Shown piece after piece: positions 35,017 through 56,854 of a stretch of 64,000 nucleotides of DNA. The DNA is from Hyphomicrobiales bacterium. Lineage in GTDB: Bacteria; Pseudomonadota; Alphaproteobacteria; Rhizobiales; MH13. The number at the start of each line of letters is the position of its first letter. Within the stretch, counting starts at the first letter, position 1. The stretch lies in contig JAEPOK010000003.1 of NCBI GenBank assembly GCA_017642935.1, forward strand, positions 186,001-250,000, written 5' to 3'. The notes beneath the pieces were generated by a model. It had not been told where the DNA came from. It searched no databases and worked only from the letters and a program-made list of their open reading frames with translations. A program made the position numbers and the translations under genes.

Positions 35017-35496
35017 TTGGCCAACCCGCCGCCCTTGCCACCCGCCAACACCGCACCGCCCTCCACTTCCGGACCCACCGGGCCGGTGGATGTGCAAACG
35101 CTGTTCTGGCTGTTTTTCCGGTTCGATGGACGCGTCGGGCGCCAGGTCTACTGGCTGTCCGTGCTCTTCTTGGCAGCGCTGGTCGGCGCCAGCGGCCTGT
35201 TTGTGGTCGATCCAGATACGGGCGGGGTGATCCTGACACCCAACCCGATTGCCTCCTTCATCTACACGATGGCTTCGATCTGCTCGATCCTGGTTTCGAT
35301 CAAGCGGCTGCACGACCTCAACATGACCGGGTTTTTTGCTCTCGGGCTGCTGATCCCGCCGGTGGCGATCATCATGTCGCTGTGGCTGGGCTTTCGCAAA
35401 GGCGATGATGGGCCCAACAAGTTTGGCTGGAAGCGCGATGTCCGCCCGACGCAACCGCCGCCTGCCATGTCGGGCAACGAGGATGATCAGGAATGA
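35017..35496 (+). CDS. DUF805 membrane protein (second of two)
   Basis: A 159-residue DUF805 paralogue: a proline-rich N-terminus, 'FWLFFRFDGRVGRQVYWLSV', three membrane segments, and the signature 'SIKRLHDLNMTGFF', ending in 'GPNKFGWKRDVRP'. Start TTG 35017 with AGGA about 10 nt upstream. It overlaps dapE by 4 bp (ATGA), implying coupled translation. Divergence from the neighbouring copy is high, so the duplication is old. Role unknown. Confidence 0.82.
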   Translation: MANPPPLPPANTAPPSTSGPTGPVDVQTLFWLFFRFDGRVGRQVYWLSVLFLAALVGASGLFVVDPDTGGVILTPNPIASFIYTMASICSILVSIKRLHDLNMTGFFALGLLIPPVAIIMSLWLGFRKGDDGPNKFGWKRDVRPTQPPPAMSGNEDDQE

Positions 35497-36695
35497 GTAA
35501 GCCGGAAACGGCTGACCTGTATGTCCGCAATCCGGTCGCCGTCCTCCAAGCCCTCATTCGTTATCCGAGCGTCACGCCGAACAGCGCTGGCGCCCTTGAT
35601 GGCGTCGCGGACATGCTGGCCTCGCTTGGCTTCGCCAACGACCAGCCAGTGTTCTCGACCCCCGGCACGCCCGATATTGCCAACCTTTTTTCGGCGCTAG
35701 GCTCGGCAACCGGCACCAACGCCAAGCACTTTGCCTTCGCCGGACATTTGGACGTTGTGCCGGAAGGCGACGCCGCCGACTGGCGCCATGGGCCGTTTTC
35801 AGCCGTGATCGACAATGGCAAGCTTTATGGCCGTGGCGCTGTGGACATGAAGGGCGGCGTGGCCGCCATGATCGCCGCCAGCGCGCGGTTTCTCGACAGG
35901 CATGGCTCCGACTTTGGAGGGCGCCTGTCCTTCATTCTGACTGGCGATGAAGAAGGCCCGGCTATCAACGGGACCGAACCCTTGATGCGGCACATTGATG
36001 AGAGGGGCGAACGTATCGACGCCTGCCTTCTCGGCGAGCCAACCAACCCTGAAACGATGGGCGAGATGATCAAGGTCGGTCGGCGCGGATCGCTTAACGC
36101 CACGCTGGACGTGGAAGGCGTGCAGGGACATGTGGCCTATCCCCATCTGGCGGCTAATCCGCTCAACCCGCTGGTGGTGGCGCTCGCAGCGCTCAAAGCG
36201 CCGCTGGATGAAGGCACCGATCTTTTTCAGCCTTCCAACCTTGAGCCGGTGACCATCGACACTGGCAATCCCGCAGCCAATGTCATTCCGCAGCGCACTT
36301 CGGCACGGATCAACGTGCGCTTTAACCCGACATGGACGCGCGCCTCGCTTGAGGCGGAACTGCGCAAGCGTCTAAACACCATCGACTGGCAGGGCTGTCG
36401 CTACACGCTCGCCGTGAAGGAAGACGCCAGCGAGGCGTTCTACACACCGCCGGGGCCGTTCGTGGATGGGCTGGTGGAGGCTATTGACGCGGCAACCGGC
36501 GTGACGCCCAAACTTTCAACATCCGGTGGCACGTCTGATGCGCGCTTTATCAAGGACTATTGCCCTGTGGTCGAATTCGGCCTGGTCGGCCAGACGATGC
36601 ATCAGGTGGACGAGCATGTTGAGATTGCTCATCTGGAAGCGCTCACCGATATCTATGTTTCGGTGCTTGAACGGTTTTTCGGTGTGTCGTCCTAG
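35493..36695 (+). CDS. dapE: Succinyl-diaminopimelate desuccinylase
   Basis: A 400-residue M20 metallopeptidase. Zinc-site strings: 'FAGHLDVVPEGD' (histidine and aspartate), 'GRGAVDMKGG' (bridging aspartate), 'DEEGPAINGT' (catalytic glutamate), and a C-terminal histidine in 'GQTMHQVDE'. 'LSTSGGTSDARF' is the DapE-specific loop. It releases succinate from N-succinyl-LL-diaminopimelate in lysine and peptidoglycan-precursor synthesis. Translation is coupled to the DUF805 gene upstream. Confidence 0.95.
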   Translation: MSKPETADLYVRNPVAVLQALIRYPSVTPNSAGALDGVADMLASLGFANDQPVFSTPGTPDIANLFSALGSATGTNAKHFAFAGHLDVVPEGDAADWRHGPFSAVIDNGKLYGRGAVDMKGGVAAMIAASARFLDRHGSDFGGRLSFILTGDEEGPAINGTEPLMRHIDERGERIDACLLGEPTNPETMGEMIKVGRRGSLNATLDVEGVQGHVAYPHLAANPLNPLVVALAALKAPLDEGTDLFQPSNLEPVTIDTGNPAANVIPQRTSARINVRFNPTWTRASLEAELRKRLNTIDWQGCRYTLAVKEDASEAFYTPPGPFVDGLVEAIDAATGVTPKLSTSGGTSDARFIKDYCPVVEFGLVGQTMHQVDEHVEIAHLEALTDIYVSVLERFFGVSS

Positions 36696-36814
36696 TCGCT
36701 GCTGGCTATGACGGCTTCTAGGCGAACCGCACTGGTGATTGACCAACCGCAATCGTTCTCGAGTGTGATAGACTAGCCTCGCTTCTTCGATTTCTTCAAA
36801 GGAGGCGCGGTACC

Positions 36815-37900
36815 ATGATTTCAAGGCGCGCAGTTCTTGGGACCGGCGTGGCGATTGGCGCTTTGGGTGCCGTCGGCTACGGGCTTTGGCCTCGTCTCGA
36901 TGATTATGAGCAAGTGGTCGCTCGCCAACGGCAAGTGCCAACCGCGGCGCCGCCCATGCTCGACTTGGTTCGTATGGCGACGCTGGCCGCCAACAGTCAT
37001 AACACTCAGCCCTGGCAGTTCTCACTGGCGGACAATGAAGTTCGCATTCTACCCGATATTTCGCGGCGGACTGAGGTGGTCGATCCTGACGACCATCATC
37101 TCTTCATCAGTCTTGGATGCGCCGCCGAAAACATGGCCATGGCAGCCCAGGCACGCGGTCAATTCGCCGATGTTCAGGTCGAGATCGATCCATCACCGTC
37201 GGTGATCGTCACGCTGGGGTCGGGGCAGATGCTCGAAACCGAGCTTTACCAAGCCATTCCGTTTCGCCAATCGACGCGCTCGCTCTATGACGGGCAGGCC
37301 TTGTCCAACGACGAACTGCGGCTGCTTGAAACCGCGGCACGCGAGCCCGGCGTTTCGCTCGCGCTTTTTACCAGTGAATCCGACCGCCAGGCGATCACCG
37401 ACTTCGTGGTTGAGGGCAACAGCGCGCAAATTGATGATCCAGCCTTTGTGGCCGAGCTGCGGCAATGGATACGCTTCAGCTCCAACCGAGCCTTGGCGAC
37501 TGGTGACGGTCTGTTTTCCGCCTGCTCGGGCAACCCGGTCGTTCCCGAATGGATCGGCGGTCCGATGTTTTCCGCGTTCTTCACCAAAGACGCCGAGAAC
37601 GAGAAGTATCGCAGCCAGATCGCCTCATCGGCCGGTGTTGCCGTGTTCACCGGAGACCGGGCCGACCTCGAGCATTGGACGAGAGTGGGCAGGAGCTTTC
37701 AGCGGTTCTCGCTGCAGGCCACGGCACTCGGCGTGCGCAATGCCCATGTCAATCAACCCATTGAAGTGCCGTCGGTAAGACCGGCTTTCGCTAACTGGCT
37801 TGGCGCACCTGACGCCCGGCCAGATCTGGTGGTCCGATTTGGTCGCGCGCCCGCTCTGCCCATGTCGTTGCGACGGCCGGTCGAGGCGGTGATTGTCTAG
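36815..37900 (+). CDS. Acg-like nitroreductase-family protein with Tat-like signal
   Basis: A 361-residue protein. The N-terminus MISRRAVLGTGVAIGALGAV has a twin-arginine-like signal, so export in a folded, cofactor-loaded form is likely. 'LAANSHNTQPWQF' and 'AIPFRQSTRSLYDG' are typical of the Acg/Rv2032-type branch of nitroreductases. That branch binds FMN, and some members appear to store flavin rather than reduce nitro compounds. An AAGGAGG precedes ATG 36815. It stands alone at the start of an accessory stretch that separates dapE from truA. Substrate unknown. Confidence 0.75.
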   Translation: MISRRAVLGTGVAIGALGAVGYGLWPRLDDYEQVVARQRQVPTAAPPMLDLVRMATLAANSHNTQPWQFSLADNEVRILPDISRRTEVVDPDDHHLFISLGCAAENMAMAAQARGQFADVQVEIDPSPSVIVTLGSGQMLETELYQAIPFRQSTRSLYDGQALSNDELRLLETAAREPGVSLALFTSESDRQAITDFVVEGNSAQIDDPAFVAELRQWIRFSSNRALATGDGLFSACSGNPVVPEWIGGPMFSAFFTKDAENEKYRSQIASSAGVAVFTGDRADLEHWTRVGRSFQRFSLQATALGVRNAHVNQPIEVPSVRPAFANWLGAPDARPDLVVRFGRAPALPMSLRRPVEAVIV

Positions 37901-38046
37901 CGGACGGGCGTACACCAGAGGCGACACAACCAGGGCGATTGTGCCTAAACGCATTAGACGTTACGTTAACTCATCCCTCCAGCCTAAGACTATGCAGAAT
38001 GACCGGGTAGGTCGCAGACATCAAACGTACTGGGAGTGAACGTGAT

Positions 38047-39858
38047 ATGGATGCATTTGCAGAGCCAACGCGTGAAACCTTTCACTTGGTTATGATCAAG
38101 CCGACGCACTACGATGATGACGGCTACCCGATCCAATGGCTCACTTCTGCCATACCTTCCAACACCTTAGCGGTCCTCAACGGTCTGGCCTACGATAGCC
38201 GCGAGCGGCAAGTCCTTGGTCCCAATGTCGACATCGTCCTGCATGCCATTGACGAGACCAACTCTCGCATTCGCCGGAAGAAGATCATTCAGCAGATCAA
38301 GCGGGACGGCGGAAAGGCGCTCATCGCCCTGGTTGGCGTGCAGTCCAATCAGTTCCCGCGTGCCGTCGACATCGCCCAAACCTTTCTCGATGCCGGCCTT
38401 CAGGTGTGCATCGGCGGGTTCCACGTCTCCGGCTGCATCGCCATGCTGAAGGAGATGCCTGAGGATTTGGTCGATGCCCAAGCGCGCGGCATCTCGTTCT
38501 TCGCGGGTGAAGCCGAAGATGGCCGCCTGGATCAGGTTCTCATCGACGCTTACAACGGCGAACTCAAGCCGCTCTACAACTACATGTCCGATCTTCCCGG
38601 CATGGAGGACCAGCCGACGCCGTTCCTGCCAGCTGAGCATCTCAAACACACCGCCGGTTCGCAATCGAGCGTCGATCTCGGCCGTGGTTGCCCCTATCAA
38701 TGCTCGTTCTGCACCATCATCAACGTTCAGGGGCGCAAGAGCCGCTATCGCTCGCCGGACGATATGGAAAAGATGCTGCGGGCCAACTATGCCCAGGGCA
38801 TCAACCGGTTCTTCATCACCGACGACAATTTCGCGCGCAACCGCGAGTGGGAAGCGATGTTCGACCGCATGATCGAACTGCGCGAGCGCGAAAAGATGAG
38901 CATGAAGTTCGTCATCCAGGTGGACACGCTTTGTCACAAGATCCCGAACTTCATTGAGAAGGCGGCGCGCGCCGGCGTGAAGCGTGTCTTCATTGGCCTG
39001 GAAAACGTCAACATCGACAATTTGGCTGCCGCCCAAAAGGGCCAGAACAAGATCACCGAATATCGTGAAATGCTGCAGATGTGGAAAGCGCACGGCATCA
39101 CGACCTATGCAGGCTACATTCTCGGCTTCCCCAACGACACACCGGAATCGCTGATGAAGGATATCGAAATCCTTCAGAACGAGCTGGCGCTGGACCTGAT
39201 TGAGTTCAATATTCTCACCCCGCTTCCGGGCTCGGCGGACCACAAGAAACTGTCCGAAGACGGGGTTTGGATGGACCCCGACATGAACAAGTACGACCTC
39301 AATCACTGGGTCATGAAGCACCCCAACATGTCGTACGATCAGTTCATGGAAGCCTATGAAGCGATGTGGGACCGCTACTATTCGGTGGAGCATATCGAGA
39401 CGATCATGCGCCGCGCCATCGCCACGGGCATGAGCGCCGGCAACATCATGTTCCTGTGTCTGTGGTTCTATCTCAACTTCAAGGTGGAGCGCGTGCACCC
39501 GGTGGATGGCGGCTACTTCCGGCTGAAATTTCGCACCGAGCGTCGGTCCGGCATGCCGATCGAGAATCCGCTTGTCTTCTATCCGAAATACGCCTGGCAG
39601 GTCGTCGCCAAGCACGCCAGCGTCGTGCCGCTACTTATCCGGCTTGCGCGCGTGCGCGCCAAGATCAAGAAAGATCCTGATCGGCGAGCGTACTCCGATC
39701 TGGCGTTGGCGCCGGTCACGGCTGAAGAGAGCGAAGAACTGGCCATGTTCACCGATGCGCGTGGCAGCGCCGATGAGGTGAAACGTTTGGCACGCCAAAA
39801 CGCGGTAATCGCCAAGGCCAAAGAAAAGGCCGACATGCCGGTTCAAGCTGCCGAGTAG
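38047..39858 (+). CDS. Radical SAM protein with B12-binding-like N-terminal domain
   Basis: A 603-residue protein. Residues 35-180 resemble a cobalamin-binding Rossmann domain ('QVCIGGFHVSG'). The radical SAM core has the iron-sulfur motif C215-x3-C219-x2-C222 in 'RGCPYQCSFC', followed by 'FFITDDNFARN' and 'FIGLENVNIDNL'. A C-terminal region of about 150 residues has a hydrophobic patch ('NIMFLCLWFYLNF') and may touch the membrane. Such enzymes carry out methylations or ring rearrangements on lipids, peptides or bacteriochlorophyll-like rings. No neighbouring pathway reveals the substrate. It is monocistronic, followed by a long structured non-coding gap. Confidence 0.82.
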   Translation: MDAFAEPTRETFHLVMIKPTHYDDDGYPIQWLTSAIPSNTLAVLNGLAYDSRERQVLGPNVDIVLHAIDETNSRIRRKKIIQQIKRDGGKALIALVGVQSNQFPRAVDIAQTFLDAGLQVCIGGFHVSGCIAMLKEMPEDLVDAQARGISFFAGEAEDGRLDQVLIDAYNGELKPLYNYMSDLPGMEDQPTPFLPAEHLKHTAGSQSSVDLGRGCPYQCSFCTIINVQGRKSRYRSPDDMEKMLRANYAQGINRFFITDDNFARNREWEAMFDRMIELREREKMSMKFVIQVDTLCHKIPNFIEKAARAGVKRVFIGLENVNIDNLAAAQKGQNKITEYREMLQMWKAHGITTYAGYILGFPNDTPESLMKDIEILQNELALDLIEFNILTPLPGSADHKKLSEDGVWMDPDMNKYDLNHWVMKHPNMSYDQFMEAYEAMWDRYYSVEHIETIMRRAIATGMSAGNIMFLCLWFYLNFKVERVHPVDGGYFRLKFRTERRSGMPIENPLVFYPKYAWQVVAKHASVVPLLIRLARVRAKIKKDPDRRAYSDLALAPVTAEESEELAMFTDARGSADEVKRLARQNAVIAKAKEKADMPVQAAE

Positions 39859-40430
39859 GACAGAAACGACAGATTGGATGGCCAATCTTGCCACGCGGCC
39901 TCAGCGGCCAAGCGGTCGTTCCGAAAAGCTGGAGCATCACCGAACAAGCGGTGGGGCCGCGAGCCCGGAGCGGGCCGCGGTGAAGCCATTGGAAACGGGG
40001 TGCCGTGAAGCATCGCCGTATCTGAGTTAAGTGTTCGATGCCGCATGGCACCCCGTGCGAAGCGTTTTTTGGCCTATCGAACAAACGCTCTGGGTGCCAA
40101 GCTGTGGTTCCACCCATGAACGGCGCACCAAGAAAGCAGATTTTCGCCTGTCTTCCTGACGCCGCGCCTACCTGCACTGACAGGCCAACGCTTATTCGGT
40201 TCTGCCCCCATGACGCGGTTGGTCGTGACCCCAACCGACAACGATGGGCGCTTCGCCCCTCCACCGGCACGGGCACGACCCCAAGCTTCCCTAGGTAGTG
40301 ATGGAAGGTGAGATAATGATGGGGGAGGAAAGAGGGGCGGGGATAAGACACGCGGTTGTTCCGCAGGAACAGAGCAAAAGGGAAGGCGGTTGTTCCGCAG
40401 CGTATGGAGCAGGAATGGGAAAGGTTGTGC
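39859..40430. other. Highly structured non-coding region
   Basis: About 570 bp with no believable gene but many inverted repeats. AGATTGG/CCAATCT at 39871-39888; CCGCG-a-GCCCG/CGGGC-CGCGG at 39957-39980; a 62-nt element with arms ACGGGGTGCC and GCATCG against CGATGC and GGCACCCCGT at 39995-40056; AGCGTTT/AAACGCT at 40061-40089; TGGGTG/CACCCA at 40091-40116; CGGTTGG/CCAACCG at 40216-40237; GGGCG/CGCCC at 40246-40258; TGTTCC/GGAACA at 40357-40371. Frames crossing it have odd composition. It may hold the 3' end of the radical SAM transcript plus an unrecognised RNA gene or intergenic repeat element. Confidence 0.6.
40352..40400. repeat. 15-bp direct repeat with embedded palindrome
   Basis: GCGGTTGTTCCGCAG occurs at 40352-40366 and again at 40386-40400, 34 bp apart. 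The first copy runs into the perfect palindrome TGTTCC-GCA-GGAACA (40357-40371). It lies 30-80 bp downstream of the stop of the serine hydrolase gene, which reads leftward, so it is at that gene's 3' end. Confidence 0.7.
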
Positions 40431-41600
40431 TCAGTTAATGCGCTGTTCGGCGAGGACAGCAAGGGCTTCTTCTAGTGCTGGCACAAGGTCTGTGCTGTCG
40501 TCCACGATGCCAACATCGGTGTTGATTTGAAACGCGATGGTCACGTCGAGATCAGCATAGTGGCGCAAGCTAGAAGCATAGCCCGGCACCCACCCACCAT
40601 GTCCGTAAACGTTGCCCCTTGGCGTATCATTGTAGATGGCTACACCTGCGCCATAGAGGACATTCGGGGGACCGCGTGAAATTTCGAAACCATCGAGAAG
40701 GCGCTCGAGATAAGGTGTTGCCATGGCTCGGCCACCAAACAGTGCATGGCCCCAAATCGCCAGATCGCGCGAGGTCGAAACAAGCCCTCCACCTGTCCAT
40801 TCCACAGCCGGATCCCAAAGTAGGCGTCCGTTATCATCCATTGTACGCACGGGTAGGCCAAAGGCATTGGTCTGCGCCGTGTAACCCGCCACAAGGGCGG
40901 GCAACGCCCTCCGGTTGGAAGGCGCCGTTTCTGTAAGTGCGAGTGGCACGATAAAGTGCTCGGACACCAAATCGTAATAGCTGCGAGCGGACACCTGCTC
41001 GATGATCAACCCAAGCAGAAGGTACCCGGTGTCTGAGTAGGCCCAACCAGCGCCTGACGGGAAGAGCGGGTCGGTGTCGAGGACAAAGATGATTGCTTCT
41101 TCTGGGGTTGGCGCACCCTGACCGGTCGCAACATTTTTGGCCATCTGGGCGGCAAATGCATCGGTGTGGACATGATCTGGGAGTCCAGAACTGTGGCGCA
41201 AAAGGTTGTGGATCGTCATCGTGTCGTGGTTCGGTAAGCGCGCGAACCAATCCCTGTCACCGAGATGATCGATCACCGGAGCATCGCGCTCCAGCACGCC
41301 AATTGATTCAAGCGCCAACACAGTTGCTGCAACGAAGCTTTTGCCGATGCTCGCGGCCAGCATCCGCGAAGCGGGCGTCATGGGCAGGCCGGTTTCACGA
41401 TCAGCCACTCCTGTGGCCACACTGTCCACACGGCCATCGGGCCACGCGATGGCCGCCGTTGCGCCAGGAAATCCGTAGTCGCTTTGAAAATGGTCGAGCA
41501 ATGCCTGTATTTGGGCCTGCTGGTCATCAGCCAATGCGTGTGTCCAAGCCAAAAAGACGGCAAAGGCCAAACTCAACGACCGCATAGCGACGCGGCTCAT
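40431..41600 (-). CDS. Serine hydrolase of the beta-lactamase/class C fold
   Basis: A 389-residue exported hydrolase with signal peptide (cleavage after ALA near residue 24). Catalytic SxxK is S84-I-G-K87. The tyrosine motif reads YSD instead of the usual YxN, and the third motif is HGG in 'GHGGWVPGY'. This pattern fits D-aminopeptidase, esterase or carboxypeptidase-like members of the Beta-lactamase family rather than antibiotic-degrading AmpC, though hydrolysis of beta-lactams cannot be excluded. It overlaps the upstream CPBP gene by 4 bp (ATGA). Base composition looks somewhat less GC-rich than in the core genes. Confidence 0.82.
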   Translation of the reverse strand: MSRVAMRSLSLAFAVFLAWTHALADDQQAQIQALLDHFQSDYGFPGATAAIAWPDGRVDSVATGVADRETGLPMTPASRMLAASIGKSFVAATVLALESIGVLERDAPVIDHLGDRDWFARLPNHDTMTIHNLLRHSSGLPDHVHTDAFAAQMAKNVATGQGAPTPEEAIIFVLDTDPLFPSGAGWAYSDTGYLLLGLIIEQVSARSYYDLVSEHFIVPLALTETAPSNRRALPALVAGYTAQTNAFGLPVRTMDDNGRLLWDPAVEWTGGGLVSTSRDLAIWGHALFGGRAMATPYLERLLDGFEISRGPPNVLYGAGVAIYNDTPRGNVYGHGGWVPGYASSLRHYADLDVTIAFQINTDVGIVDDSTDLVPALEEALAVLAEQRIN

Positions 41601-42448
41601 GGCTGATCCGGCTCTTTGTCTGGAATCACGCAGGTCACCGCGCCCGTTCGGCTAAACATGGTCTTACGGTTCCACCAGACGACCACAACAGCGACAGCGA
41701 CGAGTAGCCACGTGTCCCAGGGCTGCGCATCTGGCCAGAATGGATTGATGAGCTGCCAATGGTAAAGCATTGGCCAAAGCAGGCTGCCGCGCGAAGCGTT
41801 AAAGAGCGGCGTTACCAACACCGCCAAGGTGATATTGCCGATGAAAAACGGCCAGAAATCCCAGCCGCCAAACACCGTGCCTGCCAAATAGAACGCTGGA
41901 AGGTGCCAAAAGCCCCAGACAGCCCCGATGATAACCCCAGCCCAGATCGGCGCCACCAATCGTTGAAGCAGTGGTTGCGCCACACCTCGCCAGCCGAATT
42001 CCTCGATGGGTCCAAGAAAGAGCATCATCATCATGATGGCGACCATCGCTCCAGCGCCTTCAGGAGGAAATGGCGCAAGCAAGGGCCCACCCTTGATCAA
42101 AGACCCGGCGATGAAGACCAGCGGCAATCCAAGCAGGACGAACGCGACCCAAGCTGGGGAAACCCGCCACAGCAAAAGGCGTGACAGGAAGCTCTTGATC
42201 CCCATAGTGCCGCCAAACCACGCAACCAGCGCGAAAGCTGCGATGGCTGGTGCCCACGTCGCCAGAAAGAACAGAGGATGAGACCCGCTGATCGCGCCAA
42301 ACCATGCCTCGGCCTGTTCGGGCCGCAGGATGTAGAGCCCGATCACGCCCCAGGTTATGGCGAACGTCATCACCGCGAAGATTGGCAGGGCAAGGATCGG
42401 CAGCCGATGGCTTTTGGCCGGCATGGGGACGCTCCGTTGCATGGGCAA
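41597..42448 (-). CDS. CPBP-family intramembrane metalloprotease
   Basis: A protein of about 283 residues with about eight hydrophobic segments. The CPBP (Abi/CAAX protease) motifs are present: EExxxR as 'EEFGWRG', then FxxxH as 'GFWHLPAFY', and a downstream histidine in 'LYHWQ'. These form the intramembrane metal site. Bacterial members process peptides, provide bacteriocin immunity or act in protein maturation; the substrate here is unknown. It is co-transcribed with the following serine hydrolase. Either of the first two methionines could be the start. Confidence 0.82.
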   Translation of the reverse strand: MPMQRSVPMPAKSHRLPILALPIFAVMTFAITWGVIGLYILRPEQAEAWFGAISGSHPLFFLATWAPAIAAFALVAWFGGTMGIKSFLSRLLLWRVSPAWVAFVLLGLPLVFIAGSLIKGGPLLAPFPPEGAGAMVAIMMMMLFLGPIEEFGWRGVAQPLLQRLVAPIWAGVIIGAVWGFWHLPAFYLAGTVFGGWDFWPFFIGNITLAVLVTPLFNASRGSLLWPMLYHWQLINPFWPDAQPWDTWLLVAVAVVVVWWNRKTMFSRTGAVTCVIPDKEPDQP

Positions 42449-42555
42449 ACCGTCTTAGCCCTTTATCATTGTCTCGGGCAAAAACCGGCTGATGCGGATA
42501 AAGTCGCCCGAGCGTATCTGGGGGCCATCATTCACGCCATGAAGCACCGGCGGCC

Positions 42556-43293
42556 TCAGTACTCCACCTTCGTGAACACCAATCCATGCGCGGGAGCCAC
42601 AGGGGCGCAGGCATGGCGGTCGCGGGCCTCGAGCATCGCCTGAACCTCATCAGGGGTCAGTCTGCCCTCTCCGGCCTGCTTCAACGCGCCTACCAGGGAG
42701 CGCACTTGGTTGTGCAGGAACGAGCGGGCGGCGGCATCGATAAACACGTGCTCGCCCTCGCGCGTCACGTCGAGCCTATCCAGCGTGCGCATCGGGCTGT
42801 TCGCCTGGCACTGCACCGAGCGAAAGGTCGTAAAATCATGATGGCCGATCAGCCGGTCAGCCGCCGCCTGCATCGCGCTTTCATCCAACGGCTTGGCAAC
42901 GCCCCACACTTGGCCGCGCTCCAGCACCGGCTGCGGGCGGCGATTGAGGATCGTGTAGCAATAGTGGCGCTTGGTGGCTGAAAAGCGCGCATCAAAGCTT
43001 TCGTCGACCTGTTCGACGGTCAGCACGCCGACCAATTCCCGGCGGATGTGGGCGTTCATCGCGTCGCGCACCGTGTCGGTGGGCCAGTCTTTCGCCAGAT
43101 CAACGTGCACCACCTGACCGGTAGCGTGGACGCCCGTGTCGGTCCGCCCGGCGGCTTTCAGCGTGACCTCTTCACCGGCAAACGCCAAGACGGCTGCTTC
43201 CAACACGCCTTGAACTGTCGGCGGGCCATCCTGGCGTTGGAACCCCGCATAAGGGCCGCCATCATACTCAATGGTGAGCTTATAGCGCGGCAT
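42556..43293 (-). CDS. truA: tRNA pseudouridine(38-40) synthase TruA
   Basis: A 245-residue pseudouridine synthase. The N-terminal '[18 protein letters not shown]', the catalytic aspartate in '[15 protein letters not shown]', and '[13 protein letters not shown]' are the family markers. It modifies U38-U40 in the anticodon arm of many tRNAs. ATG 43293 directly follows the TGA of a 32-codon leader frame that begins with a diverged copy of truA's own first 18 codons. No strong ribosome-binding site is visible (AAGAAG only), so translation may depend on termination-reinitiation from that leader. Confidence 0.95.
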
Positions 43294-43392
43294 TCAAAGG
43301 TTCTTCTTTTGCTCTGGGCGTTCGCCCAACCGCGTGAGAAAGCCGGCATAGGGGCCGCCGTCATATTCAACGGTGAGCTTGTAACGGTGCAT
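43294..43392 (-). pseudogene. Truncated second truA 5' end (18 codons) in a 32-codon frame
   Basis: ATG 43392 opens a frame encoding [18 protein letters not shown], 16 of 18 residues identical to the start of TruA, then 14 unrelated residues and TGA immediately before the real truA ATG. At the nucleotide level 11 of 54 positions differ from truA, and eight of those are silent third-position changes. That is the pattern of two genes diverged under selection, not of a recent slip duplication. AGGGCGG lies upstream, just after fmt, where the normal truA ribosome-binding site would be. I read it as the stump of an earlier truA. Confidence 0.8.
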
Positions 43393-43404
43393 GAATTGTC
43401 CGCC

Positions 43405-44331
43405 CTAAGCGAGCTGATCGCCAGGTATCAATCCTGATCCATTGAGGAACGCGGTCATGTCCATGGGCTGCTTGCCGGCCCGCTGCACCTCAACCAGCTT
43501 CACCGCGCCCTGTCCGCACGCAATCTTGTGATCATCCAGCAAGGTACCGGGCGCGCCGGAGCCTTCGGCAGGCTCGACGCGCAGCACCTTCAACCGCTCG
43601 CGTTTGCCATTGGCTTCAAACTGCGTCCAGGCGCCTGGAAAGGGCGAAAGCCCATGAATATGCCGCAGCACATGGAAGGCCGAACGCGACCAATCGATCT
43701 TCGCCTCGGCCTTGTCGATCTTGGCGGCGTAGGTGGCACCGTCCTCATCCTGCTCGGTGAGTTGCAACGATCCGCGCGACAGCGCCGCCATGGCCCGGCC
43801 CATTAGATCGGCGCCAAGTCGCGCCAGCCGGTCGTGCACGTCCTGCGCCGTCATGGTGTCGGTGATGGTGAGCCGTTCGGCCATTGCGACCGGGCCGGTG
43901 TCGAGGCCCTTGGCCATCTTCATCACCATCACGCCGGTTTCTTCGTCGCCCTCCATGATCGCCCGGTTAATCGGCGCCGCGCCACGCCATCGTGGCAGCA
44001 GCGAGGCGTGCAGATTGTAGCAGCCATGGTCCGGTGCTTCCAAAACAGCCTTCGGCAGGATCATGCCGTAGGCAACCACCACCGCGGCGTCGGCACCAAG
44101 TTCGGCGAAGCGCGCCTTCTCCTCCTCGCTTTTCAGACTGCCCGGATGAAAAACCGGGATGCCCAAGGAATCGGCCTGCTCATGCACCGGCGAACGGCGC
44201 AGCTCCATCCCCCGACCGGCCGGTGCTGGCGCGCGGGTGTAGCAGGCGATGATCTCATGGCCCTGGCCAACCAGTTCCAGCAAGGTTGGAACGGCAAAAT
44301 CGGGCGTTCCCATAAAGACAAGTCTCAACAT
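43405..44331 (-). CDS. fmt: Methionyl-tRNA formyltransferase
   Basis: A 308-residue enzyme that formylates initiator Met-tRNA. '[20 protein letters not shown]' opens the formyltransferase domain, and '[20 protein letters not shown]' holds the catalytic Asn-His and the SLLPxxxG signature. The C-terminal OB-like domain begins near residue 205. The usual partner def (peptide deformylase) is not beside it. It is followed by the truA remnant and truA, and lies divergent from pheT with about 110 bp between the starts. Confidence 0.95.
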
Positions 44332-55527: not shown

Positions 55528-56136
55528 ATGCAAGACACAAGTTCCCTGCAGGACACGACGTCTGAGCCGTTCCGGATCGGTCCGCCTATGCGAGCTTCGC
55601 GTCAAAAGGCAGGCATGACATTGCAGGATGTCGCGCGTTTGGCCGGCGTTTCCATCGGCTATCTAAGCCTGATCGAACGAGACCAGGCCACGCCCACCCT
55701 AACGACCTTGGATCGCATCGCACAGGCTTTGGGGGTCGGGCTGGACAGGTTCGTGGTTCGCCCGGAACCGGTGGAATGCGTGACCCGCGCCGCTGAAAGG
55801 CAGCGGTTTCACGTCGGTTCCGATTTGCTCGGCTACGAACGGGTGAGCGCACAGTTCCCTGGGTCAGAACTGTCTTGCTATGTGTTGACGTTCGCACCGG
55901 GCTATCACGCCGAAGCGGTCGAGCACGCGGGCGAAGAGCATGTCTATGTTCTTTCAGGCGCTTTGGAGCTTCGACTGGATCGCAAGCTGCTGCACCTGAC
56001 GGCGGGCGACAGCGTGCATTACCCGTCGACCCGGCCTCACGCCTGGGCCAACCCGCACCAGACAACCGCGCAGGTTCTTTGGACGGGCACCCACGACATT
56101 TTCGCAACGCGAAACGCCAAAAAAGCCGATCGATGA
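55528..56136 (+). CDS. XRE-cupin transcriptional regulator
   Basis: A 202-residue regulator. An N-terminal XRE helix-turn-helix (about 20-75, 'MTLQDVARLAGVSIGYLSLI') is followed by a C-terminal cupin sensor domain (about 120-190, 'EHAGEEHVYVLSGALEL' with the metal-site histidine and glutamate, and 'YPSTRPHAW'). The architecture is that of PuuR and SutR-type regulators. ATG 55528 with TTGGAG upstream is preferred over a GTG at 55441, which would add a non-conserved tail. It sits 100 bp after the peptidase gene and probably controls the peptide operon. Confidence 0.88.
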   Translation: MQDTSSLQDTTSEPFRIGPPMRASRQKAGMTLQDVARLAGVSIGYLSLIERDQATPTLTTLDRIAQALGVGLDRFVVRPEPVECVTRAAERQRFHVGSDLLGYERVSAQFPGSELSCYVLTFAPGYHAEAVEHAGEEHVYVLSGALELRLDRKLLHLTAGDSVHYPSTRPHAWANPHQTTAQVLWTGTHDIFATRNAKKADR

Positions 56137-56167
56137 GCTGTCGATCGACGACAGGAGCCCCAACACC

Positions 56168-56854
56168 GTGATTACCTTCTTCTACAGCATGGCGCCGAAC
56201 CCAATGAAGGTCGCGCTGTTTCTTGAAGAGGCTGGGCTCGACTACGAGGCCGTCCCCATCGACACCAAAAAAGCCGAACAGCACACCGATGCGTTCAAGG
56301 CCATGAACCCGAATGCGAAGCTGCCGGTAATCAAGGATGGCGAGACAACTGTCTTCGATAGCAACGCGATCCTGCTCTATCTGGCCGACAAGACCGGCAA
56401 GTTCTTGCCCCCGGCCGATCAGCGCGGGGCTTTGCTGTCTTGGCTGATGTTTGTGGCGTCGGGGTTGGGACCGTTCTCCGGCCAGGCGGTGCATTTTCGC
56501 AATTTTGCGCCGGAGGCAAATCCCTATGGCATCAAGCGATACGACTATGAGGCGCGGCGGCACTGGCAAATCGTGGACGATCAGTTGGCGCGCGGGCCTT
56601 ACATGCTGGGGGATGTTTACACGATTGTGGATATGGCGGTCTGGGGCTGGGGTGACCGGCTGACCTACATGCTGGGCGATGATGACATCATGCAAAGCTA
56701 CCCCAACCTCGACCGTCTGATGAAAGAGATCGACGCACGACCGGCCGGTCAACGGGCACGCGGGCTGAAAGACTTCCATACCTTCCAGCAGACCATGGAT
56801 GACGTCGCGCGCCGCTCACTTTACCCGCAGCTCTACGCGCCGGGTCCGGTCTGA
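56168..56854 (+). CDS. Glutathione S-transferase
   Basis: A 228-residue GST. The thioredoxin-like N-domain has the early active-site region 'FYSMAPNPMKVALFLEEAGL', the cis-proline in 'NPNAKLPVIKDG' and the glutathione-contacting 'DSNAILLYLADK'. The C-terminal helical domain ends in 'YPQLYAPG'. It resembles the YfcG/Ure2-like branch, which often has disulfide-bond reductase activity. Start GTG 56168, 31 nt after the regulator. It may belong to the peptide operon or be independent. Convergent with the RND gene. Confidence 0.88.
   Translation: MITFFYSMAPNPMKVALFLEEAGLDYEAVPIDTKKAEQHTDAFKAMNPNAKLPVIKDGETTVFDSNAILLYLADKTGKFLPPADQRGALLSWLMFVASGLGPFSGQAVHFRNFAPEANPYGIKRYDYEARRHWQIVDDQLARGPYMLGDVYTIVDMAVWGWGDRLTYMLGDDDIMQSYPNLDRLMKEIDARPAGQRARGLKDFHTFQQTMDDVARRSLYPQLYAPGPV

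Follow-up and report, generated by a model that had tools for sequence, protein, structure and literature searches.

In gene displacement in situ, a gene of an operon keeps its place while its sequence is exchanged. Leftover gene pieces after displacement are described in the effector/immunity arrays of Vibrio, for which homology-facilitated illegitimate recombination has been proposed as the mechanism (PMC5361080); in the systems in which this process was measured it is rare (PMC3240628, PMC5361080). Termination–reinitiation coupling is the other described system that the locus reported here resembles. For native gene pairs of Haloferax and Escherichia coli, a study of such coupling gives a sharp drop within about 20 nt, even a 2-nt gap costing 5, 20 and 70% of coupling in three E. 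coli pairs, and cites other work in which coupling was seen across longer gaps (PMC10666635).

Here we analysed 64,000 nt of a Hyphomicrobiales genome (the window, that is, the whole stretch of DNA under study), in which a short stump homologous to the start of truA lies between fmt and an intact truA. Our best reading, to which we give a probability of about 0.5, is that a second, separately evolved truA left its 5′ end behind as the stump, and that a segment with the intact truA replaced the resident gene downstream of codon 18. When close relatives exchange core genes, a conflict between trees is usually all that betrays it; a stump preserves the exchange itself, the place of the joint and the consequences for translation of the operon. 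The features of the locus are as follows.

43405–44331, minus strand: fmt (methionyl-tRNA formyltransferase, 308 aa; PF00551 and PF02911), the upstream neighbour
43339–43392, minus strand: the stump, which begins 12 nt beyond the fmt stop and whose 18 codons are homologous to the truA start (16/18 residues, 43/54 bases)
43294–43338, minus strand: the remaining 45 nt of the stump frame (the tail), which contain a 6-bp hairpin and close with a TGA that directly precedes the truA ATG
42556–43293, minus strand: intact truA (tRNA pseudouridine synthase A, 245 aa; PF01416, 1e-40)
36696–42555, no strand assigned: 5,860-bp segment between dapE and truA, with nitroreductase-like, radical SAM, beta-lactamase-like and CPBP/Rce1-like genes
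35493–36695, plus strand: dapE-like gene (presumably so, from its sequence type), the convergent neighbour of truA in the genus

On the minus strand, fmt (44331–43405) is followed by 12 nt, a 32-codon frame (43392–43294) and truA (43293–42556). The product of the frame consists of 18 TruA-like residues and then LTRLGERPEQKKNL before the stop, and these 32 residues had no family match in Pfam. The fmt stop and the intact truA ATG are 111 nt apart, and the stump frame covers most of this gap. An earlier note on this DNA had described a 32-codon frame after fmt with its first 18 codons TruA-like at 16 of 18 residues, which we confirm; it had also put the stop one base before the truA ATG, but the two abut with a gap of 0 nt. 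The region that it named, 43240–43392, does hold the stump and also takes in the start of the intact truA, the stump ORF itself being 43294–43392.

Between the stump and the intact start, 11 of 54 bases differ, nine of them at third positions, and eight codons are silently different, which bears out the earlier count of 11 differences with eight silent changes. Only residues 2 and 8 are affected: the stump has H and the intact gene P at position 2, and V against I at position 8 (H2 occurs in 1 and V8 in 37 of 113 TruA starts). In simulations, 11 random substitutions changed about seven residues on average, and in none of 20,000 runs were two or fewer changed. Eleven differences lie in the upper range for starts that agree at 16 or more of 18 residues, 93% of 672 such pairs having 11 or fewer. 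The claim that these are two homologous truA genes that diverged under selection is supported by the absence of any equally conservative outcome among the neutral simulations; divergence so biased towards silent sites indicates that, until one of them was truncated, each of two truA copies had been evolving on its own under selection. A chance match is ruled out by the simulations together with the scan of 113 loci described below, and a recent simple tandem duplication by the 11 of 54 differences, most of them silent. We also rejected an assembly duplicate: the copies differ, and they lie inside a 309-kb contig of a 17-contig genome that is 98.8% complete.

The distribution of the stump was examined in 113 truA loci (four of the genus, 80 from genome contigs and 29 from searches of the order, with the family member G004 not included) by an ungapped six-frame scan, a tblastn census having missed even the known stump. 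A second 18-codon truA match at 16/18 residues occurred in this genome only (1 of 113 loci), as against at most 8/18 in the other 112, and marks the stump as a gene remnant. Within the genome, a protein search at E up to 10 returned just two truA matches, the stump and the intact gene. Four genomes represented the genus and five the family. The stump is absent from three congeners (G001, G002 and G003), each of which has one truA; the comparison of the fmt–truA junction in close relatives that the earlier note had proposed thus gave a single gene without a stump in all three, and not the shared two-copy arrangement that would have spoken against replacement. Across the order, at least 10 of 397 genomes (drawn from a larger group, with up to six truA candidates scored per genome) had more than one truA match among the matches listed, this genome (G000) and G004 among them. 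Re-examination of the other eight found a 5′ truA stump in none: five have one gene in two pieces, the second match of G083 is at 23%, the second piece of G245 lies at a contig end, and G212 has 3′ pieces.

Homology to truA stops at codon 18, and the 45-nt tail beyond it had no close match elsewhere in the genome, in the spacers of the three congeners or among the matches listed from the 397 order genomes (up to two candidates scored per genome), features that describe a non-homologous joint; these searches yielded no donor locus carrying the tail. As a genome repeat the tail was rejected, the other 21-mer match found with up to three mismatches allowed being a single one with three mismatches, and a reversed control giving equally many. 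It was likewise rejected as the end of an upstream gene of relatives, for which the best agreement in the 113 loci, its own copy aside, was 5 of 15 residues.

By the sequence of steps that we propose, a second copy of truA would have evolved separately, most likely in a close relative. An incoming segment carrying the intact truA and a short leader (the 45-nt tail), perhaps together with the 5.9 kb of genes now behind truA, would have replaced the resident truA downstream of codon 18 by way of a non-homologous junction to the leader of the intact gene, while the first 18 resident codons would have stayed in their native place, 12 nt behind fmt. We infer the direction, the donor, the recombination mechanism and the membership of the 5.9-kb segment in the same event. 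The non-homologous joint and the displaced gene piece beside the new gene are like those of homology-facilitated illegitimate recombination (PMC3240628, PMC5361080). Narrow literature searches turned up no previous description of a truA stump of this kind. Unlike in the Vibrio arrays, truA is a housekeeping gene of which just 18 codons are left, and a donor, an anchor and microhomology are not demonstrated here. The proposed exchange of the truA sequence with the fmt–truA order kept resembles gene displacement in situ, from which the locus differs in that its intact truA does not contradict the species order, and a displacing gene from beyond the genus is therefore unsupported.

The intact truA looks native by several measures. 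In a protein tree it falls within its genus (support 0.946), next to G002 (only 0.205), showing no phylogenetic conflict with its neighbours, and by protein identity G002 is nearest to G000 for truA, fmt, pheT and dapE alike (some pheT and dapE sequences of congeners being partial). Third-position divergence from the congeners is 0.50–0.60 for the intact truA, slightly above the 0.47–0.52 of fmt; among the four species of the genus, third-position differences in fmt, pheT, dapE and truA are 0.46–0.60 for comparisons of at least 181 codons, the 27-codon comparison of pheT with G001 being left out of the range. Codon usage of the intact truA is not atypical, its score of 0.767 exceeding that of most of the 39 genes scored in the window. 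On both phylogeny and codon usage we accordingly rejected xenologous displacement by a gene from beyond the genus; the phylogeny is compatible with exchange within the genus. For a mosaic border we followed truA similarity window by window, but silent sites are saturated and the congeners too diverged to show one. The nearest named truA genes reach about 62% identity at best, and most of them are, we take it, from Hyphomicrobiales. The replacement of a resident truA by a related allele that the earlier note had proposed stands as the best reading of the stump, although the intact truA bears no mark of a newcomer, and the stump could equally be the incoming piece. Setting the hints on the side of the stump against the native look of the intact truA, we consider exchange between close relatives, in either direction, the most likely origin.

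Those hints come from residues and bases of the stump. Residues G13, A16 and F18 occur together in 4 of 113 TruA starts, and K5 in addition only in G000 and G002, a sharing that hints weakly at a source within the genus. The hint is weak because in matches over all 18 residues two loci from outside the genus (L024 and L031) agree with the stump at 15, as does G001, with G003 at 14 and G002 at 13; nearest by residues among the 113 starts is the intact one of the same genome. At the DNA level the nearest neighbour is L073, with eight differences, which is not a congener, and other families are among the near neighbours. The earlier note had advised separate trees for stump and intact start; in one tree of all the 54-base starts, only 10 of 111 branches reached a UFBoot of 95 or more, and the intact start grouped with two Phenylobacterium sequences (UFBoot 81 and 90); on so few saturated bases the stump is not placeable by DNA. 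Of the 11 bases that differ, the stump shares 8 with G001, 7 with G002 and 6 with G003, and the intact gene shares 3, 4 and 5 with them; the three congeners jointly side with the stump at four positions and with the intact gene at one. These matches, with the 12-nt spacing after fmt, a usual one in that truA follows fmt by 16 nt or less in 71 of 104 loci, weakly favour the stump as what may be the old resident start.

The exchange may also have run the other way, with the intact truA and its 45-nt leader resident and a foreign fragment ending in 18 truA codons entering on the side of fmt, anchored at one end by homology in fmt or pheT and attached at the other, immediately ahead of the resident truA, by illegitimate end-joining. 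One homologous and one illegitimate end is a described form of homology-facilitated illegitimate recombination (PMC3240628, PMC5361080), and the native look of the intact truA in the tree, in the order of relatedness and in codon usage would fit. However, the distance of fmt and pheT from their G002 counterparts is not out of the ordinary, and the three congeners match the stump oftener than the intact gene at the 11 positions; we regard this direction as unlikely, at perhaps half the weight of replacement by the incoming intact gene. Less probable still is an old tandem duplication, by which two truA copies were long kept while their silent sites diverged and codons 19–245 of the upstream copy were deleted recently. 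It would account for the residence of both starts in one genome and for the intact truA being the nearest of 113 starts by residues, and the family member G004 does have two truA genes between fmt and dapE; yet no congener of the three has two copies, and few genomes of the order have more than one truA match (at least 10 of 397 among the matches listed, five of them with one gene in two pieces). Nor does G004 carry much weight as a two-copy intermediate, since there is a 2-N junction in its contig and its dapE stands apart from that of the genus; the second copy, which lies beyond that junction on a contig that may be chimeric, groups with a Hyphomicrobium sequence (0.951) and not with the genus.

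Far less probable than either is that the stump is an established truA leader peptide or attenuator, or the remnant of an element integrated in the truA 5′ end. The frame is open up to the ATG, the tail has a hairpin, and exact abutment of stop and ATG arises in only 2.5% of shuffled tails (within 4 nt in 4.7%), an abutment that is suggestive but was judged after the fact; diverged truA 3′ ends with a common boundary, moreover, are carried by a genome of another family (G212). Against these points, the stump occurs in a single genome of the 113 loci, the fmt–truA spacer had no Rfam match at the gathering score, a consensus scan of 43150–43650 found no terminator-like site, and a sigma-70 consensus scan of the same interval, in which we looked for the dedicated truA promoter that would have told against reinitiation, found no promoter-like site. 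The two starts are separated by just 45 bp, which leaves no element to be seen. We regard the stump as a minor but genuine trace of genetic exchange or of duplication, and as nothing exotic.

The DNA on both sides of truA is unlike that of the three congeners. Their fmt–truA spacers differ from one another (56 nt in G003, 126 nt in G001 and 248 nt in G002), and their truA–dapE spacers are 417, 511 and 7 nt, as against 5,860 nt here; the 5.9-kb segment was not found between dapE and truA in any of them. Its nitroreductase-like, beta-lactamase-like and CPBP/Rce1-like genes have low codon scores and its radical SAM gene a high one. For the CPBP/Rce1-like gene, G002 has a match of just 30%, and G001 and G003 have none; G002 also carries, on another contig, a 60% relative of the radical SAM gene. 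A truA 3′ remnant was sought in 36696–42555, with no tblastn match at E up to 1; blastn of truA against the same interval gave 13 short matches at E up to 1, which we take as chance, the best (29 nt, 86%, E 8e-5) joining bases 95–123 of the G002 truA to the inside of the radical SAM gene. The segment is possibly part of the same event as the stump, and the two flanks may stem from unrelated events. Both truA-flanking spacers differ in all four species of the genus that were compared, which suggests that the fmt–truA–dapE neighbourhood is locally unstable across the genus. In G002, the 248-nt fmt–truA spacer (L092, 1304–1551) is unlike the others and is read by an opposite-strand frame (974–1555, 193 aa), and its truA seems to start at a GTG or at an upstream in-frame ATG.

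The arrangement of fmt, stump and truA bears on how truA is translated. Nine of the 113 loci lacked a usable fmt on the same strand in the 2 kb upstream and were dropped. In the other 104, the two genes overlap by 1 nt in 50 and lie at most 4 nt apart in 63, a layout familiar from termination–reinitiation; they are at most 16 nt apart in 71. Here the stump frame and truA adjoin as TGA and then ATG at 0 nt without overlap. A crude scan for anti-Shine–Dalgarno (anti-SD) duplexes, in which the anti-SD was the general bacterial sequence and may not be that of this genome, gave −2.0 kcal/mol for the intact truA, 71% of random 20-mers being at least as strong, in keeping with the earlier remark that the gene lacks a strong ribosome-binding site. 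For the stump the value was −6.3 kcal/mol (16% of random 20-mers at least as strong), and the truA genes of G001 and G003 did better at −7.7 and −6.8. Because fmt scans equally weak at −1.9 and pheT is unremarkable at −3.2, the weak SD of truA is not special and does not prove reinitiation. Ribosomes translating the stump, whose frame reaches right up to the truA ATG, could plausibly re-start on truA; the 12-nt gap that separates fmt from the stump would make coupling weaker at that end. In the adjoining stop and start and the weak downstream SD, the locus is like termination–reinitiation coupling (PMC10666635), and unlike it in that the coupling frame is a gene remnant, that the two frames do not overlap and that the case is known here from sequence alone. 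The remnant might even have been kept as a bridge for the lost fmt–truA coupling, the stop of its mini-cistron abutting the new truA and the old first codons driving translation of the replacement, an idea that we hold to be rather improbable. The locus offers a small testable case of a coupled gene pair surviving separation.

Other truA oddities were met in the genomes compared. In G212 (L139, G212:C4:29000-43000), an intact truA is accompanied by two 62-codon copies of the truA 3′ end, 1.8 and 4.8 kb downstream. The two copies have about 89% DNA identity, with most differences at third positions (14 of 22 and 15 of 20), begin at the same codon with similar upstream bases, and one has an in-frame TGA. 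The ORF between truA and the first copy presumably resembles an IS110-type transposase, and in this genome the 3′ end of truA may serve as a site for insertion or attachment. In G004 (L091, G004:C140:1-12000), the genus-like copy of the two truA genes between fmt and dapE (support 0.714) is cut at codon 199 by the 2-N junction, and the second, the one grouping with a Hyphomicrobium sequence, is intact; this double truA reflects either a transfer or a chimeric contig. Within the window, a 397-codon frame at 55589–56779 has the lowest codon score (0.525) of the 39 frames scored and was possibly acquired, or is a shadow frame.
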